64,000 bases of DNA from an uncultured Bacteroidia bacterium. Lineage in GTDB: Bacteria; Bacteroidota; Bacteroidia; NS11-12g; UBA9320. Below the pieces are notes generated by a model, which saw nothing but the letters and a program-made list of their open reading frames with translations, searched no databases and was not told where the DNA came from. The number at the start of each line of letters is the position of its first letter. The stretch's first letter is position 1. Positions 4,929-56,425 of this stretch are shown here, in pieces. The position numbers and the translations under genes were made by a program. The stretch covers positions 1-64,000 of the forward strand of contig CAJQIC010000016.1 in the NCBI GenBank assembly GCA_905478335.1, written 5' to 3'.

Positions 4929-5006
4929 AAGGCATGCACCATGGCAAAAGAACCAAACGACCATTGCCTAAACTAAAATTGATACTACTTCATACGTGCA
5001 TGCCTT
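4929..5006. repeat. 11-bp perfect inverted repeat flanking 56 bp
   Basis: AAGGCATGCAC at 4929-4939 is the exact reverse complement of GTGCATGCCTT at 4996-5006. The second arm continues into a T-run (TTTTTT) and ends 41 nt before the beta-lactamase start. With a 56-nt loop it is a poor terminator. It could be a regulator site or the scar of a lost element. Confidence 0.4.
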
Positions 5007-5047
5007 TTTTAGGAAACTTGGTTAAATTGTAGCCACATACAGCACAT

Positions 5048-5959
5048 ATGAATCCAACTTCTTTTTTGACTTTCGCTATTGTCTTATTTACAACAGTTAC
5101 GGCTTGCAATTTTAAAAGCAGAGAAGAACGCAAGAGTGCCCAAATGGAAGAACTGTCCGTCCTTGAGAATAAAATAGAAGAACTGGAGGATAGAATAGGG
5201 AATAAGACAACAAAACGAATCGATGTCAAAGGGTTTGGCGATATTATCGACAGCAACGACCTGAGCGGGTCAATCGTTTTTTTTGAAGAAAGTACGAATA
5301 CCTGGTTTAGTAACGATTTTGATTGGGCAGACAAGAGGAGACTACCTGCTTCCACGTTTAAAATTGTTAATTCTATTATTGGACTGGAAACCAACGTAGT
5401 CTCCGACACCGGCATACAGTTTAAATGGGATAGCAGTCAAGATCGACGAAAAATGTGGCGTAAAGACTTTGACTTACATGGGGCCTTTCATGCGTCTTGT
5501 TTACCTTGTTATCAAGAGCTGGCAACAAACGTTGGTTTGGAAACTATGCAGCAATATGTGGATCGACTATCCTATGGCGATATGATTGTGGATTCCAGTT
5601 CATTGGATAATTTCTGGATAAAGGGTGAATCAGGTGTTAGTCAGGTCGAACAAATCGACTTCTTGCAGCGGTTATATAATCACCAACTACCGGTCAGTGT
5701 TTCTACAATAGATAAAATGAAAAAGCTAATGGTTATTGATTCCAATGCCAACTACAAATTAAGTGGCAAAACGGGTTGGGGTTTTCACAATGACCAAGAT
5801 AATGGCTGGTTTGTGGGGTACATAGAAAAGGACGACAATACGTATTTCTTTGCCACAAATGTGACGCCAAAAGAAACGTTTAATATGTCTCTGTTTGCCA
5901 AGATGCGCAGCCTTGTGACCATGCAGGCATTTGAACTTTTAGGCACATTGCCTGACTAA
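5048..5959 (+). CDS. Class D beta-lactamase-like lipoprotein
   Basis: A 303-residue protein with a lipoprotein signal (lipobox VTAC, Cys20), a charged coiled-coil linker at about residues 24-52, then an OXA-like penicillin-interacting domain. Landmarks are the SxxK motif Ser102-Thr-Phe-Lys105 (PASTFK), YGD at 176-178 where class D usually has YGN, and KTG at 241-243 (SGKTGWG). The second motif, normally SxV, reads Ser150-Cys-Leu. The spacing of all motifs matches class D enzymes, which acylate on the motif-1 serine and hydrolyse beta-lactams. The membrane anchor and coiled coil are unusual. No BlaR1-like transmembrane protease is present, so it is an enzyme or binding protein, not the C-terminus of a sensor. 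Its neighbours give no functional hint. Confidence 0.88.
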   Translation: MNPTSFLTFAIVLFTTVTACNFKSREERKSAQMEELSVLENKIEELEDRIGNKTTKRIDVKGFGDIIDSNDLSGSIVFFEESTNTWFSNDFDWADKRRLPASTFKIVNSIIGLETNVVSDTGIQFKWDSSQDRRKMWRKDFDLHGAFHASCLPCYQELATNVGLETMQQYVDRLSYGDMIVDSSSLDNFWIKGESGVSQVEQIDFLQRLYNHQLPVSVSTIDKMKKLMVIDSNANYKLSGKTGWGFHNDQDNGWFVGYIEKDDNTYFFATNVTPKETFNMSLFAKMRSLVTMQAFELLGTLPD

Positions 5960-46736: not shown

Positions 46737-47333
46737 TTAATCTACGCCTATATATTTATGTGTCTGAAGGCATATGTGCCAATCAGTGTTTTCTAATACA
46801 AAGTCTACAATTAAAGGGTGCATTTGTTCATTTTTACTCCATTCTGGTTGCAAAAAAAGTAAACAGTTGTTGTTGACTTCTTTTTGAAATGATTTTGCCC
46901 ATTCAAAATCAGATTTGTTAAACACCACCACTTTTAATTCGTTTGCCATCTGTGCACAGGAATCAACAGGGGCTTTAAATTTTTTTGGACTGAAGGTTAC
47001 CCAGTCAAAAGAACCTTTAAGTGGGTGCGCACCTGAAGTTTCGATATGAACACGTTTTCCCGTTTTTTGGATTGCTGATGTCAATGCAGTTAAATCATAC
47101 ATCGCAGGTTCTCCGCCTGTGATAACAACAATGTTGCAAGGATAATTGGCCGCCTCTTCCGCCAATTCTTCTGGCGTCAAAAGTGGATAACCCTCTGCAT
47201 CCCAACTCTCTTTTACATCACACCAAACACACCCAACATCACATCCTGCCAGACGAATGAAATACGCTGCATGTCCGGTATATTTTCCTTCACCTTGAAT
47301 GGTGTAGAACCGTTCCATTACAGGCAGTTTCAT
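46737..47333 (-). CDS. queE: 7-carboxy-7-deazaguanine synthase
   Basis: A radical-SAM enzyme that converts 6-carboxytetrahydropterin to 7-carboxy-7-deazaguanine on the way to queuosine tRNA modification. The 198-residue protein has the variant cluster motif CDVGCVWCD and the QueE N-terminus YTIQGEGKYTGHAAYFIRL. The motif VITGGEPAMYD is the glycine-rich SAM contact. No other queuosine gene is adjacent. It starts 1 nt after folD ends. Confidence 0.93.
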   Translation of the reverse strand: MKLPVMERFYTIQGEGKYTGHAAYFIRLAGCDVGCVWCDVKESWDAEGYPLLTPEELAEEAANYPCNIVVITGGEPAMYDLTALTSAIQKTGKRVHIETSGAHPLKGSFDWVTFSPKKFKAPVDSCAQMANELKVVVFNKSDFEWAKSFQKEVNNNCLLFLQPEWSKNEQMHPLIVDFVLENTDWHICLQTHKYIGVD

Positions 47334-47334
47334 A

Positions 47335-48210
47335 CTAATTGCTAAACTTAAGGTTGTGTGACTTCAATGTGTTTTGCATCAAACCAATTATTGTCATTGG
47401 TCCAACACCTCCAGGTACAGGAGTAATGTATCCAGCCACTTGCTCTGCAGATTCAAATTCAACATCTCCTTTTAATACATAACCTCTTGGTGTGTCAGCA
47501 TCGACGCGCGTAATGCCAACGTCAATTACAGTCGCTCCAGGTTTTACCATATCGCCTGTAACAAACTCAGGTATGCCTAAGGCAACAATTAAAATGTCGG
47601 CAGATTTTGCGTAAGAAGCCAAATCTACCGTTCTGCTGTGACACAAGGTTACTGTGCAGTTTCCAGGATTTCCACTTCGAGACATTAGGATGCTCATAGG
47701 ACGACCTACTATATTACTTCTTCCAATAACCACGCAATGCTTGCCACTGGTTTCAATTTCGTACCTTTCTAGTAATTGGATAATGCCGTAAGGCGTAGCG
47801 CTAATAAAGGTGTCTTGTCCTTTTGTAAGTCTTCCTACACTTACATCATGAAAGCCATCAACATCTTTAGTTGGGTCAATTGCTTGAGTCACCTTATGCT
47901 CAGAAATATGTTTAGGAAGTGGTAATTGCACGATTAAACCATCAATACCGTCGTCGTTATTAATTTCTTCTATTTTAGCAAGTACGTCTTCCTCAGAAGT
48001 TGATTCTGGTAAACGTATAAGCGTAGAGCTAAATCCTACCTTTTCACATGCCAATTCTTTGTTTTTGACATAGGTTTTACTTGCACCATCTTCGCCAACC
48101 AATATGGCCACCAAGTGTGGCGGTCTTACGCCTTTGTTTACAATAGCTGTAACCTCTTCCACTATTTCAACTTTTATCTGATCTGCGACCTGTTTTCCTT
48201 TTAGTAACAT
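47335..48210 (-). CDS. folD: Bifunctional methylenetetrahydrofolate dehydrogenase/cyclohydrolase
   Basis: A one-carbon enzyme of about 291 residues that interconverts methylene- and formyl-tetrahydrofolate. Seen are TYVKNKELACEKVG with the catalytic Lys and Tyr (YxxxK), QLPLPKHI, VDGFHDVSVGRL, the NADP motif GRSNIVGRPMS, and PVPGGVGPMTI. The ATG at 48210 is preferred, since a longer frame from 48246 adds a 12-residue stretch not expected in FolD. It heads the operon folD-queE-desaturase. Confidence 0.95.
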   Translation of the reverse strand: MLLKGKQVADQIKVEIVEEVTAIVNKGVRPPHLVAILVGEDGASKTYVKNKELACEKVGFSSTLIRLPESTSEEDVLAKIEEINNDDGIDGLIVQLPLPKHISEHKVTQAIDPTKDVDGFHDVSVGRLTKGQDTFISATPYGIIQLLERYEIETSGKHCVVIGRSNIVGRPMSILMSRSGNPGNCTVTLCHSRTVDLASYAKSADILIVALGIPEFVTGDMVKPGATVIDVGITRVDADTPRGYVLKGDVEFESAEQVAGYITPVPGGVGPMTIIGLMQNTLKSHNLKFSN

Positions 48211-48325
48211 AGTTGTCAATCTAATTTTGTCGGCAAAAGTAGGCATATAGGAATAACTACGTTTACTATTCCAACGAATTAATGAGCTACTTTGTACTTA
48301 CATTTATTGCAAGCGCGTTGTATAT

Positions 48326-49027
48326 ATGATTAAACGAATAGCGTATATATTTTTACTGGTTTTTTTGGTCTTCATTTCTGTAATGGAAATGGGCTGTCGG
48401 AAGAATGCAATTGAACCAAAATCGAATGACTTTGGGTACGGATATTTTCCGTTGAGTGTTGGAAGTACCTGGATTTACCAAGTGGACTCTATAGACTATG
48501 ATGCGTTTGGAAAAACCATTGATACGTTTCGGTTTCTGGTCAAACACCAAATTGTTGATAGCATTGTAGACAACCAAGGCGTGCGTGGGAGCATTGTAGA
48601 AGTGTCTCGCACAGATTCATTAACTGGCCCATTTGTCTTTGATCGAAACATGGTGAAAAGAATCACAGAATTCAGAGCTGAGGTATTAGATTCTAATGTT
48701 CGTGTTATAAACTTGGTATTCCCACCGACCTTGTACAAGTACTGGGATGCCAATGTATTCAACACAAAAGACAAAGAAGAATATGAAATTTTAGAAGAAA
48801 TATCGACCGAAATTATTGATACTACACAGTATATGAATACCTTGCACGTTGTTCAACGCGATGAGGCATTCAAAACACTGCGCAACTTCGGTATTGAAAA
48901 ATACGCAAAGGACAAGGGATTGATTTACGCAAGACAAATATTTTGGACAAAAAAAGCCATAGGGGATACCACTGAAATTCCTGAAGGTTATGATTACACC
49001 TATACACTAAAGTCGTTTGAAAAATAA
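48326..49027 (+). CDS. Paralogous lipoprotein 1 of a four-gene coupled cluster
   Basis: A 233-residue lipoprotein with signal MIKRIAYIFLLVFLVF ending EMGC. The hallmark near residue 40 is GYGYFPLSVGSTWIYQVDSI, followed by DTFRF. The same hallmark recurs in the next three genes, so they form a family. The middle has FPPTLYKYWDANVF, shared with gene 4 as FPVKARVFWDGNQL. The last 11 nt overlap the start of gene 2. I do not recognise the family. I infer a periplasmic or outer-membrane beta-rich protein. No catalytic residues are evident. Confidence 0.8.
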   Translation: MIKRIAYIFLLVFLVFISVMEMGCRKNAIEPKSNDFGYGYFPLSVGSTWIYQVDSIDYDAFGKTIDTFRFLVKHQIVDSIVDNQGVRGSIVEVSRTDSLTGPFVFDRNMVKRITEFRAEVLDSNVRVINLVFPPTLYKYWDANVFNTKDKEEYEILEEISTEIIDTTQYMNTLHVVQRDEAFKTLRNFGIEKYAKDKGLIYARQIFWTKKAIGDTTEIPEGYDYTYTLKSFEK

Positions 49028-49676
49028 AGTCGTTATAAGCTTATTATTTGGATTGGTTGTCAGCCTGGTGTTTATGTCTTGTGAAAAAGATATTGCCATA
49101 CCACGGTATTCGAGTTTTGGCGATGATTATCTGAAGATAAAGGAAGGAACAACGTGGTTGTATCAGATTGATTCAGTAAAAGTGGATTTGATTGACCCTA
49201 TACAGCATCACATGTATTATCAGAAAGAAGTGGTCAGTAAGGTTGAGATTACGCAACGTAACGCAACCTATACCATTGACGTCTATCGGAGCCACGATTT
49301 AGCATTAGATTACAAAAAGACCGAGGTGTATACGCTTCAACTATATAATGACCGAGTTGTTCATATGGGCAACGACTACAACATTATCGCTTTAACTAAC
49401 CCTTTAGAAGCAGGTACCAAGTGGTATAATCTGAACAGTACTTGTTTAAATGCGCAATCTGTCATTGATGAACATTTGGATCAATACACACACAATGCAC
49501 AAACCTATTATGACATCATGGATGTGACTCATTATGACTATCACCATAATGATATTTCTCAGTCCCATAGGTCGTATTATGGCAAGGAGGTAGGCTTGAT
49601 TTATGAGATGCGTTACGATCGTTTAAGAAATTCAAAAACGACTATAACAAAATCGCTTTTATCCTATGCGTATTAA
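49017..49676 (+). CDS. Paralogous lipoprotein 2 of a four-gene coupled cluster
   Basis: A 219-residue lipoprotein with signal ending FMSC, followed by EKDIAIPRYSSFGDDYL. The hallmark is KEGTTWLYQIDSV. It starts with TTG at 49017, inside the end of gene 1. The closest relative is gene 3, which shares EKDVAIP, a TGCYYNQ-like middle (here NSTCLNAQ), and C-terminal GKEVGLIYEMRYDRLRNS. Its last 11 nt overlap gene 3. The TTG start and nested arrangement suggest that translation depends on termination of gene 1. Function unknown. Confidence 0.8.
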   Translation: MKNKVVISLLFGLVVSLVFMSCEKDIAIPRYSSFGDDYLKIKEGTTWLYQIDSVKVDLIDPIQHHMYYQKEVVSKVEITQRNATYTIDVYRSHDLALDYKKTEVYTLQLYNDRVVHMGNDYNIIALTNPLEAGTKWYNLNSTCLNAQSVIDEHLDQYTHNAQTYYDIMDVTHYDYHHNDISQSHRSYYGKEVGLIYEMRYDRLRNSKTTITKSLLSYAY

Positions 49677-50334
49677 AAATGCATTTGGGTTGCTTCTGGT
49701 TTGTTTATTGTTTGTCTCTTGCGAGAAGGATGTTGCCATACCTCAATACATCGGGTTTGCAGACAATTATTTGTCGATGAGAGTGGGTTCGGTATGGGTG
49801 TATCAAGTTGATTCTGTTTACAGAGAAACCGCGAGACCTGACAAGGTTAAACAATATTTTGAAAAGCACGTAATTGTTGATTCTGTGTTAGACAAGCGCA
49901 TATTAACATACCGTATAGAGGTTTTACGGAGTGATTTTATTGATACTGATTTCGAGAATTTCCGTAACTACGAAATTCTGTTGACAGACAGTACAGCGAC
50001 ATACAGAGGTCCAAAATTGACGTACCTCATGCTTAAAAAACCAATGGCATTGAATCAAAAATGGCACAACGGGCATACAGGTTGTTATTACAACCAGGGT
50101 AAGGTGATTGACCACCAATTAGAAAAGGAGTTAGGCGGAGAAGTTTTCCAAGACGTACTTGAAATTGAGCATTGTTCATTTTATGTATTTGACCAAAACC
50201 ATGGTCATCGTGGCATATATGGCAGAAATGTAGGACTAGTTCAAGAATATTTTTATAGTGGTACATATAACCGACTTGCCCGTAGTTCGACGTTAAATTC
50301 TACCTTACGAACACTACAGACATATGAATATTAA
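49666..50334 (+). CDS. Paralogous lipoprotein 3 of a four-gene coupled cluster
   Basis: A 222-residue lipoprotein with signal MRIKNAFGLLLVCLLFVSC and EKDVAIPQYIGFADNYL. The hallmark is VGSVWVYQVDSV. Two cysteines (TGCYYNQ and EHCSFYV) and a His-rich NHGHRGIYGRNVGLVQE are near the C-terminus and correspond to a similar stretch in gene 2. The ATG at 49666 lies within the last codons of gene 2 (TATGCGTATTAA). The last 11 nt overlap gene 4 in the same way. It is closest to gene 2, suggesting a local duplication. Function unknown. Confidence 0.8.
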   Translation: MRIKNAFGLLLVCLLFVSCEKDVAIPQYIGFADNYLSMRVGSVWVYQVDSVYRETARPDKVKQYFEKHVIVDSVLDKRILTYRIEVLRSDFIDTDFENFRNYEILLTDSTATYRGPKLTYLMLKKPMALNQKWHNGHTGCYYNQGKVIDHQLEKELGGEVFQDVLEIEHCSFYVFDQNHGHRGIYGRNVGLVQEYFYSGTYNRLARSSTLNSTLRTLQTYEY

Positions 50335-50971
50335 ATATATCTTTTTGTTTGTCATTATTTCTTCTTGTAGAGAAGTAGAAGAACCTACAAGCATTGGATA
50401 TGATTACTTTCCACTTGCCATAGACAATGAATGGATATACAAAGTCGATTCTATTCATTTTGACGATTTCACGCAGCAAGTTGACACATATTCCTATTGG
50501 AGAAAGGAAGTAATAACCAGCATAGCAGACATTACCAGCGAAACAGATCGATATTATGTCGATGTTTTATTCCGAACCGATTCTACAAACTGGCAGTATG
50601 TTCAAACCATGTTGGTCTATAAAAACGACATCCGGGCAGTGCGTTCAGTAAACAATCAACCCATTGTTCATCTTTTATTTCCGGTGAAAGCAAGGGTGTT
50701 CTGGGATGGCAATCAACTGAACAATTTGCCAGAAGATCGATTTCGGTATATCGATACACATAAAAGTAAAGCTACGTTGCTTGACTCATTTGCAAACACC
50801 GTGTTTGTTCAGCAAGCATTTGATACGTCCATCATAGAGGATGACATACGCTGGGAATTGTTTGCTGAAAATGTTGGCTTGGCCGAAAGACAAATTGTTT
50901 CAATAGAAAAACAGCAAGGAAAGCGCAAAGGCTTTGATTTGCGTTGGACGTTAAATTCATTTACTAAATAA
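50324..50971 (+). CDS. Paralogous lipoprotein 4 of a four-gene coupled cluster
   Basis: A 215-residue lipoprotein with a short signal (MNIKYIFLFVIISSC). The hallmark is GYDYFPLAIDNEWIYKVDSI, then DTYSYW. It is more like gene 1 than genes 2 and 3, as shown by the shared FFPL-type hallmark, VFWDGNQL, and C-terminal RWTLNSFTK compared with YTLKSFEK. The ATG lies in the end of gene 3 (ATGAATATTAA). The S8 peptidase gene starts 7 nt after its stop. Function unknown. Confidence 0.8.
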   Translation: MNIKYIFLFVIISSCREVEEPTSIGYDYFPLAIDNEWIYKVDSIHFDDFTQQVDTYSYWRKEVITSIADITSETDRYYVDVLFRTDSTNWQYVQTMLVYKNDIRAVRSVNNQPIVHLLFPVKARVFWDGNQLNNLPEDRFRYIDTHKSKATLLDSFANTVFVQQAFDTSIIEDDIRWELFAENVGLAERQIVSIEKQQGKRKGFDLRWTLNSFTK

Positions 50972-50978
50972 ATATAAG

Positions 50979-52658
50979 GTGAGGATATTTACAGGAGTAC
51001 TCTTAGTTGTTATGTCGACTTTGAGCTATGCAGGATCTAAAACTACATACCATTTTTTTGTTCAATTTCATGATAAGGGGCTTAACTACGTCGAGATAAA
51101 TAAACCTGATTCCTTTTTGTCTGCAAGGGCGTTAGAACGAAGAAGTCGATTAGACATACCGGTAGATTCCTTTGATTTACCCGTGACCGAAGCATATATA
51201 AACAACATTCGAAAACCCTCCATTCAAGTGCGGTATGTTTCCAAATGGCTTAACGGCGCAGTCATTTCTACTGCTTCTATGGATACAGCATGGCGTTTAA
51301 AGATTAAGTTTTTTGTAGACGATGTGGTGTATTTGGGCAAAAGCATAGAAAAAACGAACAGGTCTGGAAGACAGGAGGAGTTGGCTCAGAACGATTCGTT
51401 TAAGAATCAATATGGAGATGGTTATCGACAGTTAGACATGCTAAAAGGAACCGATTTGCACAAAGCGGGGTTTCTTGGAGAAAATATGATAATTGCCGTT
51501 TTTGACGCAGGTTTTCGCAAAGTGAATGAACTGAGCTTGTTTGCAGAATTGTTTAAAAATGAGCAAGTTATCTACACAAAAGACCTGGTTGACCTAGAAA
51601 GGAATGTGTACGACGATGACGATCACGGACTGCATGTATTTGGCTGTATGGCAGCCAACAAACCTTCTAAGATGATAGGAGCGGCACCTGCTGCAGAGTA
51701 CGTATTGATTCGCACAGAGTCTAATACATATGAAACTTGGTTGGAGGAACTGAATTGGGTGCGCGCCGCTGAAATTGCAGATTCAATGGGCGTTGACGTG
51801 ATTAATTCATCTTTGGGTTACAACCATTTCGATGAAAAACGCTTAAATCATTCTCATGCGGATTTAGATGGTAAAACAACATACATCAGTCGAGGAGCAG
51901 CCATTGCAGCCACACGTGGTATGCTTGTGGTCAATTCTGCGGGTAACGATGGGAACAAAAGTTGGGGGAAGCTGGACTTTCCTGCTGATGTCGAAGACAT
52001 ACTTGTCGTAGGAGCGGTGGATCATAGTTTAGATGCACCAGCTTTTAGCTCGCCAGGCCCAACATCAGATTTCAGAATTAAACCGGATGTTGCTGCTTTG
52101 GGCAAGCAAACCTTCGTTGCAACGACGTATGGTATTGGTACTGGATACGGAACGTCGTATTCTTCTCCGATTATCGCAGGCTTGGCTGCGTCCTTGTGGG
52201 GTGCCAATACGACACTTACACCGCTGGAAGTCAAGGAGATAATAAAGCGTAGTGGCCATTTGTTCTATAACCCAGACAACGTCATTGGCTATGGTGTACC
52301 AGATTTTGATTTGGCTTTAAAAATGACTGGGAAACATCCCTCATTTGATTATGCAACAAGGCAGCTTATAAGCTTCAGTAAAACATCATATGCGCATGAA
52401 GAATCGGTAAGTATCTATGCGCCTAGCCATACGAAAGGGTATTGTGCTGTCAAGCAGCAAAGACGATTCCTGTTTTTCAAATACTATAAAACACGGTCCA
52501 CATCCGAGTGTTCAATAGGCAGTAAAGGTTTTGGAAGAATGCATGTGTTGCTGTATAACATTCCAAATGGTAAAAAAGTAACGCTATCTTTTTATGCCGA
52601 AAACGAAGAAGGGGAGAAGACGATAATTCAAGAGATGCAGGGCAAATTGAGTGATTAG
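50979..52658 (+). CDS. S8 family (subtilisin-like) serine peptidase
   Basis: A 559-residue secreted protease that starts with GTG at 50979, 7 nt after lipoprotein 4. It has signal peptide MRIFTGVLLVVMSTLSYA, then a prodomain-like part (FLSARALERRSRLDIPV). The subtilase triad follows in the order Asp (VFDAGF), His (DDDHGLHVFG) and Ser (GTSYSSPIIAG), with the oxyanion Asn in NSAGNDG. The first Asp is in DAG rather than the usual DTG/DSG. The C-terminal beta region (SFYAENEEGEKTI) lacks a clear T9SS sorting signal. Operon position suggests a link with the four lipoproteins, perhaps as their processor or as a partner. This is inference. Confidence 0.9.
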   Translation: MRIFTGVLLVVMSTLSYAGSKTTYHFFVQFHDKGLNYVEINKPDSFLSARALERRSRLDIPVDSFDLPVTEAYINNIRKPSIQVRYVSKWLNGAVISTASMDTAWRLKIKFFVDDVVYLGKSIEKTNRSGRQEELAQNDSFKNQYGDGYRQLDMLKGTDLHKAGFLGENMIIAVFDAGFRKVNELSLFAELFKNEQVIYTKDLVDLERNVYDDDDHGLHVFGCMAANKPSKMIGAAPAAEYVLIRTESNTYETWLEELNWVRAAEIADSMGVDVINSSLGYNHFDEKRLNHSHADLDGKTTYISRGAAIAATRGMLVVNSAGNDGNKSWGKLDFPADVEDILVVGAVDHSLDAPAFSSPGPTSDFRIKPDVAALGKQTFVATTYGIGTGYGTSYSSPIIAGLAASLWGANTTLTPLEVKEIIKRSGHLFYNPDNVIGYGVPDFDLALKMTGKHPSFDYATRQLISFSKTSYAHEESVSIYAPSHTKGYCAVKQQRRFLFFKYYKTRSTSECSIGSKGFGRMHVLLYNIPNGKKVTLSFYAENEEGEKTIIQEMQGKLSD

Positions 52659-55600
52659 TTCTTAATCACTTTTTGCCAGATAAATTCGTTGTCAATTTCG
52701 ATTTTAAACCAATAAAAACCAGAAACAAGGTGGGTTACGTCAACCTCAACTGACTTGCTGTATTTTACGTCTATGGACTCAATCATTTTGCCGCTTGCAC
52801 CAAACACTTCAACCGATTGAATCGAATTGTTTTGGGAAGAAATGAATAGGTAATCATCCGTAGGATTTGGGTATAGTTGTATGCCATACGATTGAATCAT
52901 AGGTGCTGAGCTATGATAATCAACTACAAATGAGCCTTTTATGGTGTCATTGGACTTTACTTGATCAATACCTAGTCTGCTAATCAAATACATGTCGTAA
53001 GTTCCAGGAGTTGTAGGTTCAAAAGTGCTGTCGAATCCAACAATTTCAGAACCAGCTGAATCAAGTGAAATATTTCTATTTGAATTGTACAGCTGTGTGT
53101 TATTCAACATAATAACAAACGAGACACCAAATTCATTTGGTTGAGCGCTGTCTCCTAAGTTTTGGAATTGTCCTTTTGGTGCATAGGTTCTATTCGCAAA
53201 AACAAGGGAATCTATTTCTGGATATACAAAGGCCACGGGGGCAATGTCGTTTTGTAGAGAAACAAAGAAATCGCGCTCTAATTCATTGTCTGAAACAATT
53301 TCATCATCCACGTTTTGAATCGTTACCTTCATCTTTATTTTGCCGGTAATCAAAGGCACAAAAGGCAAAGGTTTAATCTCGATAGATGTTTCAGATTGTA
53401 AGACAGTTATAGAGTCAGAAATGCGATACACTTCAGAACCATTGTTATCAAACGTTACGGTGTAATAAACAGGGTTGCTAATATCATTTAAGCCCGAGTT
53501 AACAATACTAAATGAAGGGAATACCGTATCAATATTCAGTTGATACACTTGATTAAGCGTAGGTGCGTTAATATCCCCCAAGGAAATCGAATTTTTTGCT
53601 GATGCATTAAAGTTTGTCTTTAATGTATCATTGCTTGCTTCACCGTCTGTTGGAAGTTTAATAAAACATACCGCGTTATACGCATCCTTGATGTTAAAGA
53701 ATACAAACTCCGGGAATCTTACGTCGGTACGATTATCGATGGCCAGCGTGCTTCCTAAAGTAGTTGAATCATAATATACCTCAGCTCCTGTAGAATTAAC
53801 TATGCGATAAAACAATTGAGCAGTGGCAGGAACAATGGTGTTGCCCGTATTTACAACAGATACTTTAGGACTTATCGTATCACCCCTTAAGTATAAAGAA
53901 TCCTTAACAGGGTCCTTTATGGCTACCAATGCAAGGTCCGTCTTTGTTTTAATAAAGAACTGCGTAGAAATCCGATCATTTGTCGTGTCTTGATCACCAG
54001 CAATCCAAGTCTTCGCATCAAATGTTAAAGTCTGCGCGTTGTTTGGGACTTTAAAGTCTTTAAACAGTGCTTGTATTGTGCTGAACTTAGGAAGAGGTCG
54101 TATAACCGTATCCCGATAAATCACCGAACCAGATTCATCAGTTATTGCGCACGTGACAACAGTGGAGTCTTGGTCACCCAATCCAAAATTTCGGTAATTT
54201 AGATAAGGCCGGAAGACTTGATTTCTTTCGTAAATAGAACTGTCTCTTGGGCGTATCACAGAAACAATCCCTAAGTCGTTGCTTCTAACAACTTCGACCG
54301 TGACGCGAGCAGTGTCATTGACAGGAAAACTATCAATGGTGTTCCAGCAGAAGACTTCAAATATTACGTCACCAGCAAAAGGTATAGTAACAGAATCGAA
54401 GGCAAGGATTTGACTTCCTCCGCCTAGCAGGCTGATTGTTTGGGTTTGCTCTTTGGCTATGTTGGTGTCTTGCCGAATTCTTGAGGTAACGCGTATATTA
54501 GATTGATCTCTCGATCCAAAGTTTACCATCCGTACCGTAGGACTGACTTTATCTTTGTTTAGCTCATAGCGTGTGCCTGCAACGGGTTCAAAGAAACTCT
54601 CCACCTGTATATCGTAATTTACATAAATGCTGAAATCGATGGCTAGGCTGTCGTTTTCAACCGCAAGATCTCCCGACAACTTGGTGTACACCAGCATACG
54701 CAAATCGCCATAATTTCCTAAAGAAAATGGTTTGTCAAATGTAATTTCTATACTATCCTCAGCGTCGAGTGTGATAATCTTAATGCTCTTGTATATCACA
54801 TTATTGAACTGGTCAAGAACTTCGCAAACAACATCAAACGGATTGTTTTGATCTCTTACGCCATAATTATACACGATGGCTTTTGGCCTTACGCTATCAC
54901 CAATGCTGAATTCAAACGTATCTAAATCTGATGGATAAGTAATGCCTAGTACTGCTACGTCATGTGCAATTTGGATTCTAGGCTGAATATCAAAATTAAA
55001 GTCAAATCCCGGTGAAAAAGACGTCCAGTTTGTGTCTCTTGCAGGTGCAGCAAAATAAAACACCCCAGGCCTAACGGGGGTTTCAGCTTCATAGTTGAAA
55101 GCAATATTCTGTGTGCCTAGCTGACGAATTCCCACAAAATAACCGTCTCGAACTTGCACTTTAGGTAAGACAGGTTGGATATATTGACCTCCATTACTCA
55201 ATAATGTATCTGACGTGTATATTTCCTTTCCAGGTCCACCATTGGAATCTTCTTGCCATATACCAAGCATAAACGGTTGGCCAGACGACGAGAAACCAAT
55301 CTTAATCTGATTAATGTAGTTACTATCGGTATAGTATTTTGCAATAAAATCACCAGAACTTCCATTAAACCCAATGCCAAACGCGGCATTTGTAACGAAG
55401 GGATTGTTATGGCTTAGTACGTTGTGTGAAATCTTTCTTACAAAAACGGTGGTGTCATCTAAGTTATACGGATCGCCAACACTGCGTACGGTTAAAGTAT
55501 CAACGCCTTTGTTCTTAGGTTTGTAAGTATGTGAAAACAGCATTTTGTCACTGAAGGTAGCCAATGTATCTACATATACGGTATCCCTGAAAGTATTGGC

Positions 55601-56425
55601 GCCTGTTACGGCTATTTCAAATGGATGGTTGTAGAGTGCTTTTTTACCTGTATTGCGCACCGTAAATTTAATCGTATCAATTGGCGCCATCAAAAGCGCA
55701 AGCTCGCCTAAAGCGTATACATTGTTTACCGCAGCATTGGCATCATACCTTGGATAATGTATCCGTATAGATGGTTTACGTACTTGTGTAAATACAGTCG
55801 TATCAGGTGCTTGATTGATACCGAAGATGTATTTGGTTTCATCATTGGAAACAAATCCGGTGACGCTGAAGTTGTTTTCATACGCCCACAATGGAATTAG
55901 ACCTACTGGTTGTGCCGCATTTTGATAAAACTCTACAAATATTTTGAGGTGACTTCCCTGTGTCGTATCAAAAACGAATAAAGAGTCAAAGACAAACGGC
56001 TTGTAACCCGTTGTTGCGTCTACTATGGACTGTATCGACCCGTCGAATACCTTTTTTACGCCGGACTTACTGGTTTCTGTCGACCAACTTTGAATGTTAC
56101 CTGCACCAAAGTCTGCAGAGTCCGACATCCCGATAAACATTTTGAAATTCGGTGATCCTGCATACACAGAGGTATTGGTCTTAAAAAATTCTATCATTCG
56201 GATAGAATCACCATGGGCCAAATCTCCTAGTGTTGATGCTGGGTAAATATACGCGTGTCTGCTAAAGGCGTTGGCACTATCCGTTCTGCAAACCATTGGG
56301 CCGTATGTATTACTGGTAAAAGTCACCGGGCCAATCGTCGTGTACTGAGCGGTAGATTCTTGCCACGTCAGTAGAAGGGTTGACAGGATGAAAATATTAC
56401 GGATACTACGGTAAATCAGGATCAT
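52655..56425 (-). CDS. Large T9SS-sorted protein with six CARDB/Ig-like repeats
   Basis: A 1256-residue secreted protein. After a signal peptide (before QYTTIGPVTF) comes a region of about 450 residues with a jelly-roll or metal-independent beta pattern. Six repeats of about 114 residues then begin near residues 487, 601, 717, 828, 942 and 1056. Each opens with an aliphatic strand such as DLALVAIKDP or DIQVESFFEP, followed by a proline-containing strand (GDTISPKVSVVNTGN), like CARDB or other Ig domains. Three repeats carry GxxDQ(S/N/D). From about 1175 there is a T9SS type A sorting domain (YPNPTDDYLF). It ends 4 nt inside the convergent S8 gene. Probably a surface adhesin or stalk. Confidence 0.85.
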   Translation of the reverse strand: MILIYRSIRNIFILSTLLLTWQESTAQYTTIGPVTFTSNTYGPMVCRTDSANAFSRHAYIYPASTLGDLAHGDSIRMIEFFKTNTSVYAGSPNFKMFIGMSDSADFGAGNIQSWSTETSKSGVKKVFDGSIQSIVDATTGYKPFVFDSLFVFDTTQGSHLKIFVEFYQNAAQPVGLIPLWAYENNFSVTGFVSNDETKYIFGINQAPDTTVFTQVRKPSIRIHYPRYDANAAVNNVYALGELALLMAPIDTIKFTVRNTGKKALYNHPFEIAVTGANTFRDTVYVDTLATFSDKMLFSHTYKPKNKGVDTLTVRSVGDPYNLDDTTVFVRKISHNVLSHNNPFVTNAAFGIGFNGSSGDFIAKYYTDSNYINQIKIGFSSSGQPFMLGIWQEDSNGGPGKEIYTSDTLLSNGGQYIQPVLPKVQVRDGYFVGIRQLGTQNIAFNYEAETPVRPGVFYFAAPARDTNWTSFSPGFDFNFDIQPRIQIAHDVAVLGITYPSDLDTFEFSIGDSVRPKAIVYNYGVRDQNNPFDVVCEVLDQFNNVIYKSIKIITLDAEDSIEITFDKPFSLGNYGDLRMLVYTKLSGDLAVENDSLAIDFSIYVNYDIQVESFFEPVAGTRYELNKDKVSPTVRMVNFGSRDQSNIRVTSRIRQDTNIAKEQTQTISLLGGGSQILAFDSVTIPFAGDVIFEVFCWNTIDSFPVNDTARVTVEVVRSNDLGIVSVIRPRDSSIYERNQVFRPYLNYRNFGLGDQDSTVVTCAITDESGSVIYRDTVIRPLPKFSTIQALFKDFKVPNNAQTLTFDAKTWIAGDQDTTNDRISTQFFIKTKTDLALVAIKDPVKDSLYLRGDTISPKVSVVNTGNTIVPATAQLFYRIVNSTGAEVYYDSTTLGSTLAIDNRTDVRFPEFVFFNIKDAYNAVCFIKLPTDGEASNDTLKTNFNASAKNSISLGDINAPTLNQVYQLNIDTVFPSFSIVNSGLNDISNPVYYTVTFDNNGSEVYRISDSITVLQSETSIEIKPLPFVPLITGKIKMKVTIQNVDDEIVSDNELERDFFVSLQNDIAPVAFVYPEIDSLVFANRTYAPKGQFQNLGDSAQPNEFGVSFVIMLNNTQLYNSNRNISLDSAGSEIVGFDSTFEPTTPGTYDMYLISRLGIDQVKSNDTIKGSFVVDYHSSAPMIQSYGIQLYPNPTDDYLFISSQNNSIQSVEVFGASGKMIESIDVKYSKSVEVDVTHLVSGFYWFKIEIDNEFIWQKVIKN

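Follow-up and report, generated by a model that had tools for sequence, protein, structure and literature searches.

A four-gene lipoprotein array in a conserved neighbourhood with an S8 subtilase gene in an uncultured Bacteroidia bacterium

What role might be served by four small lipoprotein genes that are joined by equal overlaps and placed directly before a protease gene? The question is raised by a block at positions 48326–52658 of contig CAJQIC010000016.1, from an uncultured Bacteroidia bacterium. The window, i.e., the whole stretch of DNA that was analyzed, is 64,000 nucleotides (nt) in length. All coordinates are positions in this window, and all array genes and the S8 subtilase gene are on the (+) strand. 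Gene 1 (48326..49027) is the first copy and encodes a lipoprotein of 233 amino acids (aa). It is followed by the lipoprotein paralogues gene 2 (49017..49676; 219 aa, TTG start) and gene 3 (49666..50334; 222 aa), and by gene 4 (50324..50971; 215 aa), the S8-proximal lipoprotein copy. The overlaps of genes 1 and 2 (49017..49027, tTTGaaaaaTAA), genes 2 and 3 (49666..49676, tATGcgtatTAA) and genes 3 and 4 (50324..50334, tATGaatatTAA) are all 11 nt, and TATGnnTATTAAA is common to the second and third junctions. The S8 open reading frame (ORF) (50979..52658; 559 aa, GTG start) begins 7 nt past the gene 4 stop. An earlier note on this DNA had described this layout, and every sequence detail of it was found to be correct. 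The lipoprotein and S8 genes represent a real and old conserved gene neighbourhood across many Bacteroidota, with a link that is not absolute. The lipoproteins may be outer-membrane and probably periplasm-facing partners of the S8 protease, a reading given a probability of about 0.4.

Conservation of the neighbourhood was surveyed at 39 fetched loci of the same order. One of these (L036) ends before the next gene, which leaves 38 readable loci. S8 is downstream on the same strand at 34 of the 38, and at one of the 34 (L062) another small ORF stands between the lipoprotein and S8. The left neighbours vary, with what are, judging by their sequences, presumably folD- and queE-type genes in most of the loci. 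As the left neighbours differ between loci, the lipoprotein-S8 pair moves as a unit. Outside the order but within the same class, S8 of the same type adjoins 20/33 lipoprotein loci (E < 1e-19), in five further families. The earlier note would have abandoned its idea had these genes proved scattered or unlinked from S8, and the two sets of loci show them linked. A second survey, anchored on S8, covered 80 S8 loci in public genomes. The lipoprotein is upstream at 32 of the 80; by family, it is present at 15/15 loci in Hymenobacteraceae, 0/10 in Prolixibacteraceae and 0/5 in Saprospiraceae.

The four array proteins all contain the motif W(I/L/V)Y(Q/K)(V/I)DS. Pairwise comparisons of their mature domains give z-scores of 6.3–23.3 relative to shuffled sequences, and the four are therefore paralogues, as the earlier note had proposed. 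Genes 2 and 3 share 31% identity (z 23) and genes 1 and 4 share 32% (z 16), with 22–28% for the remaining pairs. The proteins display the N-terminal hydrophobic segment and lipobox Cys characteristic of bacterial lipoproteins (helix 2–22 in a model of gene 1). The Cys is present in 4/4 array proteins and is invariant across 65 family members, though the gene 1 lipobox is atypical with a Glu at -3 (EMGC). The TTG start codon of gene 2 is a caveat for that protein. No Pfam or NCBIfam model matches any of the four, and the same searches over the 65 members give just scattered chance-level matches. A sequence search of PDB chains with the family profile yields no match, and in the literature neither the family nor its pairing with S8 was found described. 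On these comparisons the array lipoproteins are one family covered by no Pfam or NCBIfam model.

The genome has only these four family copies. A match at E < 0.01 is found in 70/97 genomes of the order, and in a completeness-filtered set 45/65 genomes have a match at 1e-10. The number of copies per genome in that set is usually one or two; G001 has three, and this genome alone has four. A search of 396 genomes from the phylum places all full-length matches at E < 1e-19 in the same class, and those outside the order are at 33 loci in families f4, f7, f9, f10, f11 and f12. Weaker matches in the phylum mostly span the N-terminal part only. These weaker-matching proteins have the elements YFPLxxGNxWxY and YAKxIGLV in common with the array family, and a profile-profile alignment (hhalign) of the array family with this broader lipoprotein set gives a probability of 99% (E=2.7e-18, 194 aligned columns). 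The W-x-Y hallmark, taken in the earlier note as a mark of the family, is thus partly generic, but the full-length family is distinct. The array family resembles the broad Bacteroidota set, for which no Pfam model was found, in the lipobox, the N-terminal motif and a C-terminal Y-x-K-x-I-G-L. It differs in forming a branch apart, marked by a VDS extension and by the S8 linkage, whereas the broad set is widespread outside the class.

The S8 protein matches Pfam PF00082 (E=4.3e-36) and has the Asp/His/Ser triad of Peptidase S8. The catalytic domain contains Asp176/His216/Asn323/Ser393, and these residues are invariant in 24 orthologs. The protein consists of a signal peptide, an N-terminal pro-domain, the catalytic domain and a C-terminal beta domain. 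The structural model shows the pro-domain, a disordered linker and the catalytic domain, with less certainty for the C-terminal beta domain, and its fold matches include pro-Tk-SP and pro-subtilisin E. Given these matches, S8 does not need an external folding inhibitor. By its sequence the protein is an intact protease that includes a pro-domain. S8 proteins related to the window S8 at the ortholog level share 30–69% identity with it. Several of them, in other families, end in a YPNP-type domain of the type IX secretion system (T9SS), as is known for T9SS-exported S8 peptidases of Bacteroidota; the window S8, like S8 throughout its order, differs in having no such motif. Pfam and NCBIfam searches show no C-terminal T9SS sorting domain (PF18962-like, YPNP) in the window S8, and the motif is likewise not found in S8 orthologs of the order. 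A YPNP-type motif is present in S8 orthologs of other families (L104, L105, L108, L109, L115, L121 and L123). Loss of the lipoprotein-S8 pair as a consequence of T9SS loss was considered and rejected; the T9SS gene sprA is present in 94/97 genomes, including all 64 good ones.

An AlphaFold2 model of the gene 1 protein, with a mean pLDDT (predicted local distance difference test) of 91, is all-beta: a signal helix leads into roughly twelve strands. In a Foldseek search the best solved fold match is a Parabacteroides lipoprotein (4fvs, BDI_3050 of Parabacteroides distasonis; E=5e-6, probability 1.00), and further matches, weaker than 4fvs, are LolA-like, LmcA-like and lipovitellin folds. The LolA match has a Foldseek probability of up to 0.99 but a template modelling (TM) score of about 0.3. 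BDI_3050 and the LolA/LmcA-like folds are thus the nearest to the model, at TM-scores of ~0.4 or below and with no sequence match to any PDB chain. A lipid-binding role of the array lipoproteins is only hinted at by the model because the TM-scores are so low. The surface-export signal of Bacteroidota lipoproteins (lipoprotein export signal, LES) is C-X-K-(D/E)2-X after the Cys (PMC5080379). The corresponding segments of the array proteins are RKNAI, EKDIA, EKDVA and REVEE, and 0/4 have the K-(D/E)2 motif by these rules, which were defined in other species. The surface location raised in the earlier note is therefore not supported. Some S8-proximal second copies in the sister family f2 (L061, L064, L066 and L067), unlike the window copies, carry CKKDE/CRKDE-type export motifs.

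How the array arose was analyzed with a tree of 48 family members. A 100/100 clade that is found in their own genus only unites genes 2 and 3 with the G001 and G004 middle genes. Gene 2 is 81% identical to its G001 counterpart; gene 3 is absent from G001 and its nearest relative is the middle gene of G004. Orthologs of gene 1 are present in all four same-genus relatives, and those of gene 4 in G001, G002 and G004, with a cut-off copy in G003. A tree constrained to unite the types of genes 1 and 4 is worse by 10 log units (p-AU, approximately unbiased test, 0.053), and this sister pair is disfavoured. When gene 4 is instead grouped with the g5 and g10 second copies, the loss is 1.4 log units (p-AU 0.42), and gene 4 may have descended from the second copy of other genera. 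As placed in the tree, genes 2 and 3 stem from an expansion restricted to the genus, and genes 1 and 4 are older genes of the genus. The nested duplication proposed in the earlier note is partly supported: genes 2 and 3 fall in one clade, but a pairing of genes 1 and 4, both old, is disfavoured. Further duplication within the genus enlarged an older block of two copies into the present array.

The junctions reflect the same history. In a nonredundant survey of prokaryotes, overlaps of 4 nt (~45%) and 1 nt (~15%) are the commonest (PMC3887535), and the three equal 11-nt overlaps thus need explaining. In the window, as judged from a rough ORF set, 6/29 co-directional neighbours overlap and 11 nt is seen only at the three array junctions. 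The TTG-start junction (tTTGaaaaaTAA or near variants) is also present in G001, G003 and G004 of the same genus, in G008 (g5), and in G014, G028 and G033 (g10). The ATG version is found in G001 and G004. The 11-nt overlap is therefore seen in three genera (g1, g5 and g10), while lipoprotein junctions in family f2 are mostly 4-nt overlaps. Most simply, a single ancestral junction was retained and then multiplied by tandem duplication. As the overlaps are best read as copies, they provide no argument from three independently reached spacings, which weakens the earlier suggestion that the uniform spacing points to translational coupling. Overlapping genes are often translationally coupled and are enriched among complex subunits (PMC10666635); coupling of the array genes is plausible, and the overlap geometry is compatible with it. 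The array illustrates how identical gene junctions can come from duplication copying and not from repeated selection for coupling. In a codon comparison with G001, the ratio of nonsynonymous to synonymous substitution rates (dN/dS) is 0.06–0.07 for genes 1 and 4 and 0.02 for S8, with the larger dS values near saturation; silent sites of gene 2 are saturated. This shows that genes 1 and 4 and S8 are under purifying selection.

In the favoured explanation, the array would be an operon-like block of outer-membrane lipoproteins that act, anchored in the membrane, as partners of the secreted subtilase encoded with them. The lipoproteins, which have a putative ligand-binding beta-sheet fold and probably face the periplasm, would bind, stabilize or position S8 and its substrates at the outer membrane. 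Translational coupling, if present, would give near-equal synthesis of the array proteins. Partnership is favoured by the linkage to S8 in the order and elsewhere in the class, by co-absence of the two genes in family f2, by the lack of such a lipoprotein next to the genome's other S8 paralogues, by the low dN/dS values, by the enrichment of overlapping genes among complex subunits and by the fold neighbours of the gene 1 model. The closest working analogy found, one of arrangement and not of descent, is dentilisin of Treponema denticola. This protease is encoded by a lipoprotein-lipoprotein-subtilase operon, prcB-prcA-prtP, in which PrcB, a lipoprotein of roughly 23 kDa that interacts with the protease, is required for PrtP; PrcB homologues are stated to be absent outside oral treponemes (PMC8167434). 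When gene arrangement alone is compared, in both systems a subtilase gene is preceded by small lipoprotein gene(s). The two differ in that dentilisin has an acylated PrtP and a 70-kDa PrcA that is cleaved, whereas in the present system a single small family supplies between one and four paralogues and S8 has a plain signal peptide. A full Bacteroidota counterpart of dentilisin, i.e., a multi-lipoprotein subtilase complex anchored in the outer membrane, where groove-bearing beta-sheet paralogues present hydrophobic or acylated substrates and each widens the range, is unlikely.

The partnership has to be weighed against a looser relationship, where the lipoproteins are independent envelope-maintenance proteins (e.g., lipid- or lipopolysaccharide-related, LolA/LolB-like) and S8 is a long-standing but functionally loose neighbour. 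This is a distinct possibility, and is rated so because the lipoprotein and S8 each lack the other in some lineages. Several results weigh against partnership and most of them fit looseness. The four loci of the order without S8 are all in genus g3 (L039, L044, L046 and L053), 13/33 lipoprotein loci elsewhere in the class have no neighbouring S8, and S8 occurs without the lipoprotein in many Bacteroidales, Saprospiraceae and f6/f5/f13 genomes. The low TM-scores of the gene 1 model also count against partnership. The weakly LolA-/LmcA-like beta-sheet would suit envelope maintenance. So would an LptF/LptG-type gene directly upstream in L054 and upstream genes of similar length in other loci. A loose neighbourhood does not readily explain why S8 is adjacent in seven families with differing left neighbours, or the co-absence in sister family f2, where 30/30 genomes with no or a weak lipoprotein match also have no S8 match at 1e-20; both speak for more than chance linkage. 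Since it is mostly entire genera (g11, g15, g16 and g19) that lack the genes in f2, the co-loss may represent few evolutionary events, and this too tempers the case for partnership.

The same linkage and co-absence would be expected if the lipoproteins were substrates, decoys or inhibitors that keep S8 silent in the envelope, and divergence of the paralogues to 22–32% identity would then reflect different targets. But S8 already carries a pro-domain, which in such proteases (e.g., pro-subtilisin and pro-Tk-SP) normally acts as chaperone and inhibitor, and no Pfam/NCBIfam inhibitor match is found in the 65 members, which makes such a role improbable. Little likelihood is likewise given to a diversifying array of surface-displayed, adhesin- or antigen-like lipoproteins, the protease acting as a processing enzyme at the surface. 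The lineage-specific expansion (four copies here vs 1–3 in relatives) and the K-(D/E)2 motif in a minority of members from other genera would agree with it, but the motif is in none of the window proteins and dN/dS is low for the measurable genes.

In much of the class Bacteroidia, an unmodelled lipoprotein family has thus accompanied one and the same subtilase. The partnership is directly testable, as culturable genera such as Hymenobacter and Pontibacter carry the lipoprotein-S8 pair. The g3 loci provide a natural case for testing functional independence from S8.

Some S8 loci have other neighbours. At L054 (3409–9990), ubiE, porT-like, tgt and LptF/LptG-type genes are immediately before lipoprotein-lipoprotein-S8. 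In Bacteroidales-type loci a MORN_2-repeat protein precedes S8 (L142 5088–5879, L150 5133–5936 and L137 795–1625). This gene of ~265 aa was considered as a diverged lipoprotein and rejected, as it encodes a MORN_2 protein. L104 has MORN_2, lipoprotein and S8 consecutively, and at L158 the lipoprotein and S8 are separated by an extra lipoprotein-like ORF (4937–5680) that has no match in Pfam. No array-family lipoprotein stands beside either of the genome's other two S8 paralogues (L204 5565–7085 and L205 5704–7365). One of these paralogues overlaps the end of an 868-aa gene that is, judging by its sequence, presumably mutS-like.

Within the lipoprotein-S8 block, scans for consensus promoters and terminators show no excess over shuffled sequences, and no tandem DNA repeats or Rfam families were found. 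To the left, the folD-type gene (47335..48246, (-) strand) is divergent from gene 1, and together with the queE-type gene (46737–47333) is the usual left neighbour of the array. To the right, a large T9SS-type cargo gene (52655–56425, (-) strand; 1256 aa, Por_Secre_tail E=7e-12) is tail-to-tail with S8 with a 4-nt overlap, and such a gene recurs as the S8 neighbour in many loci of the family.

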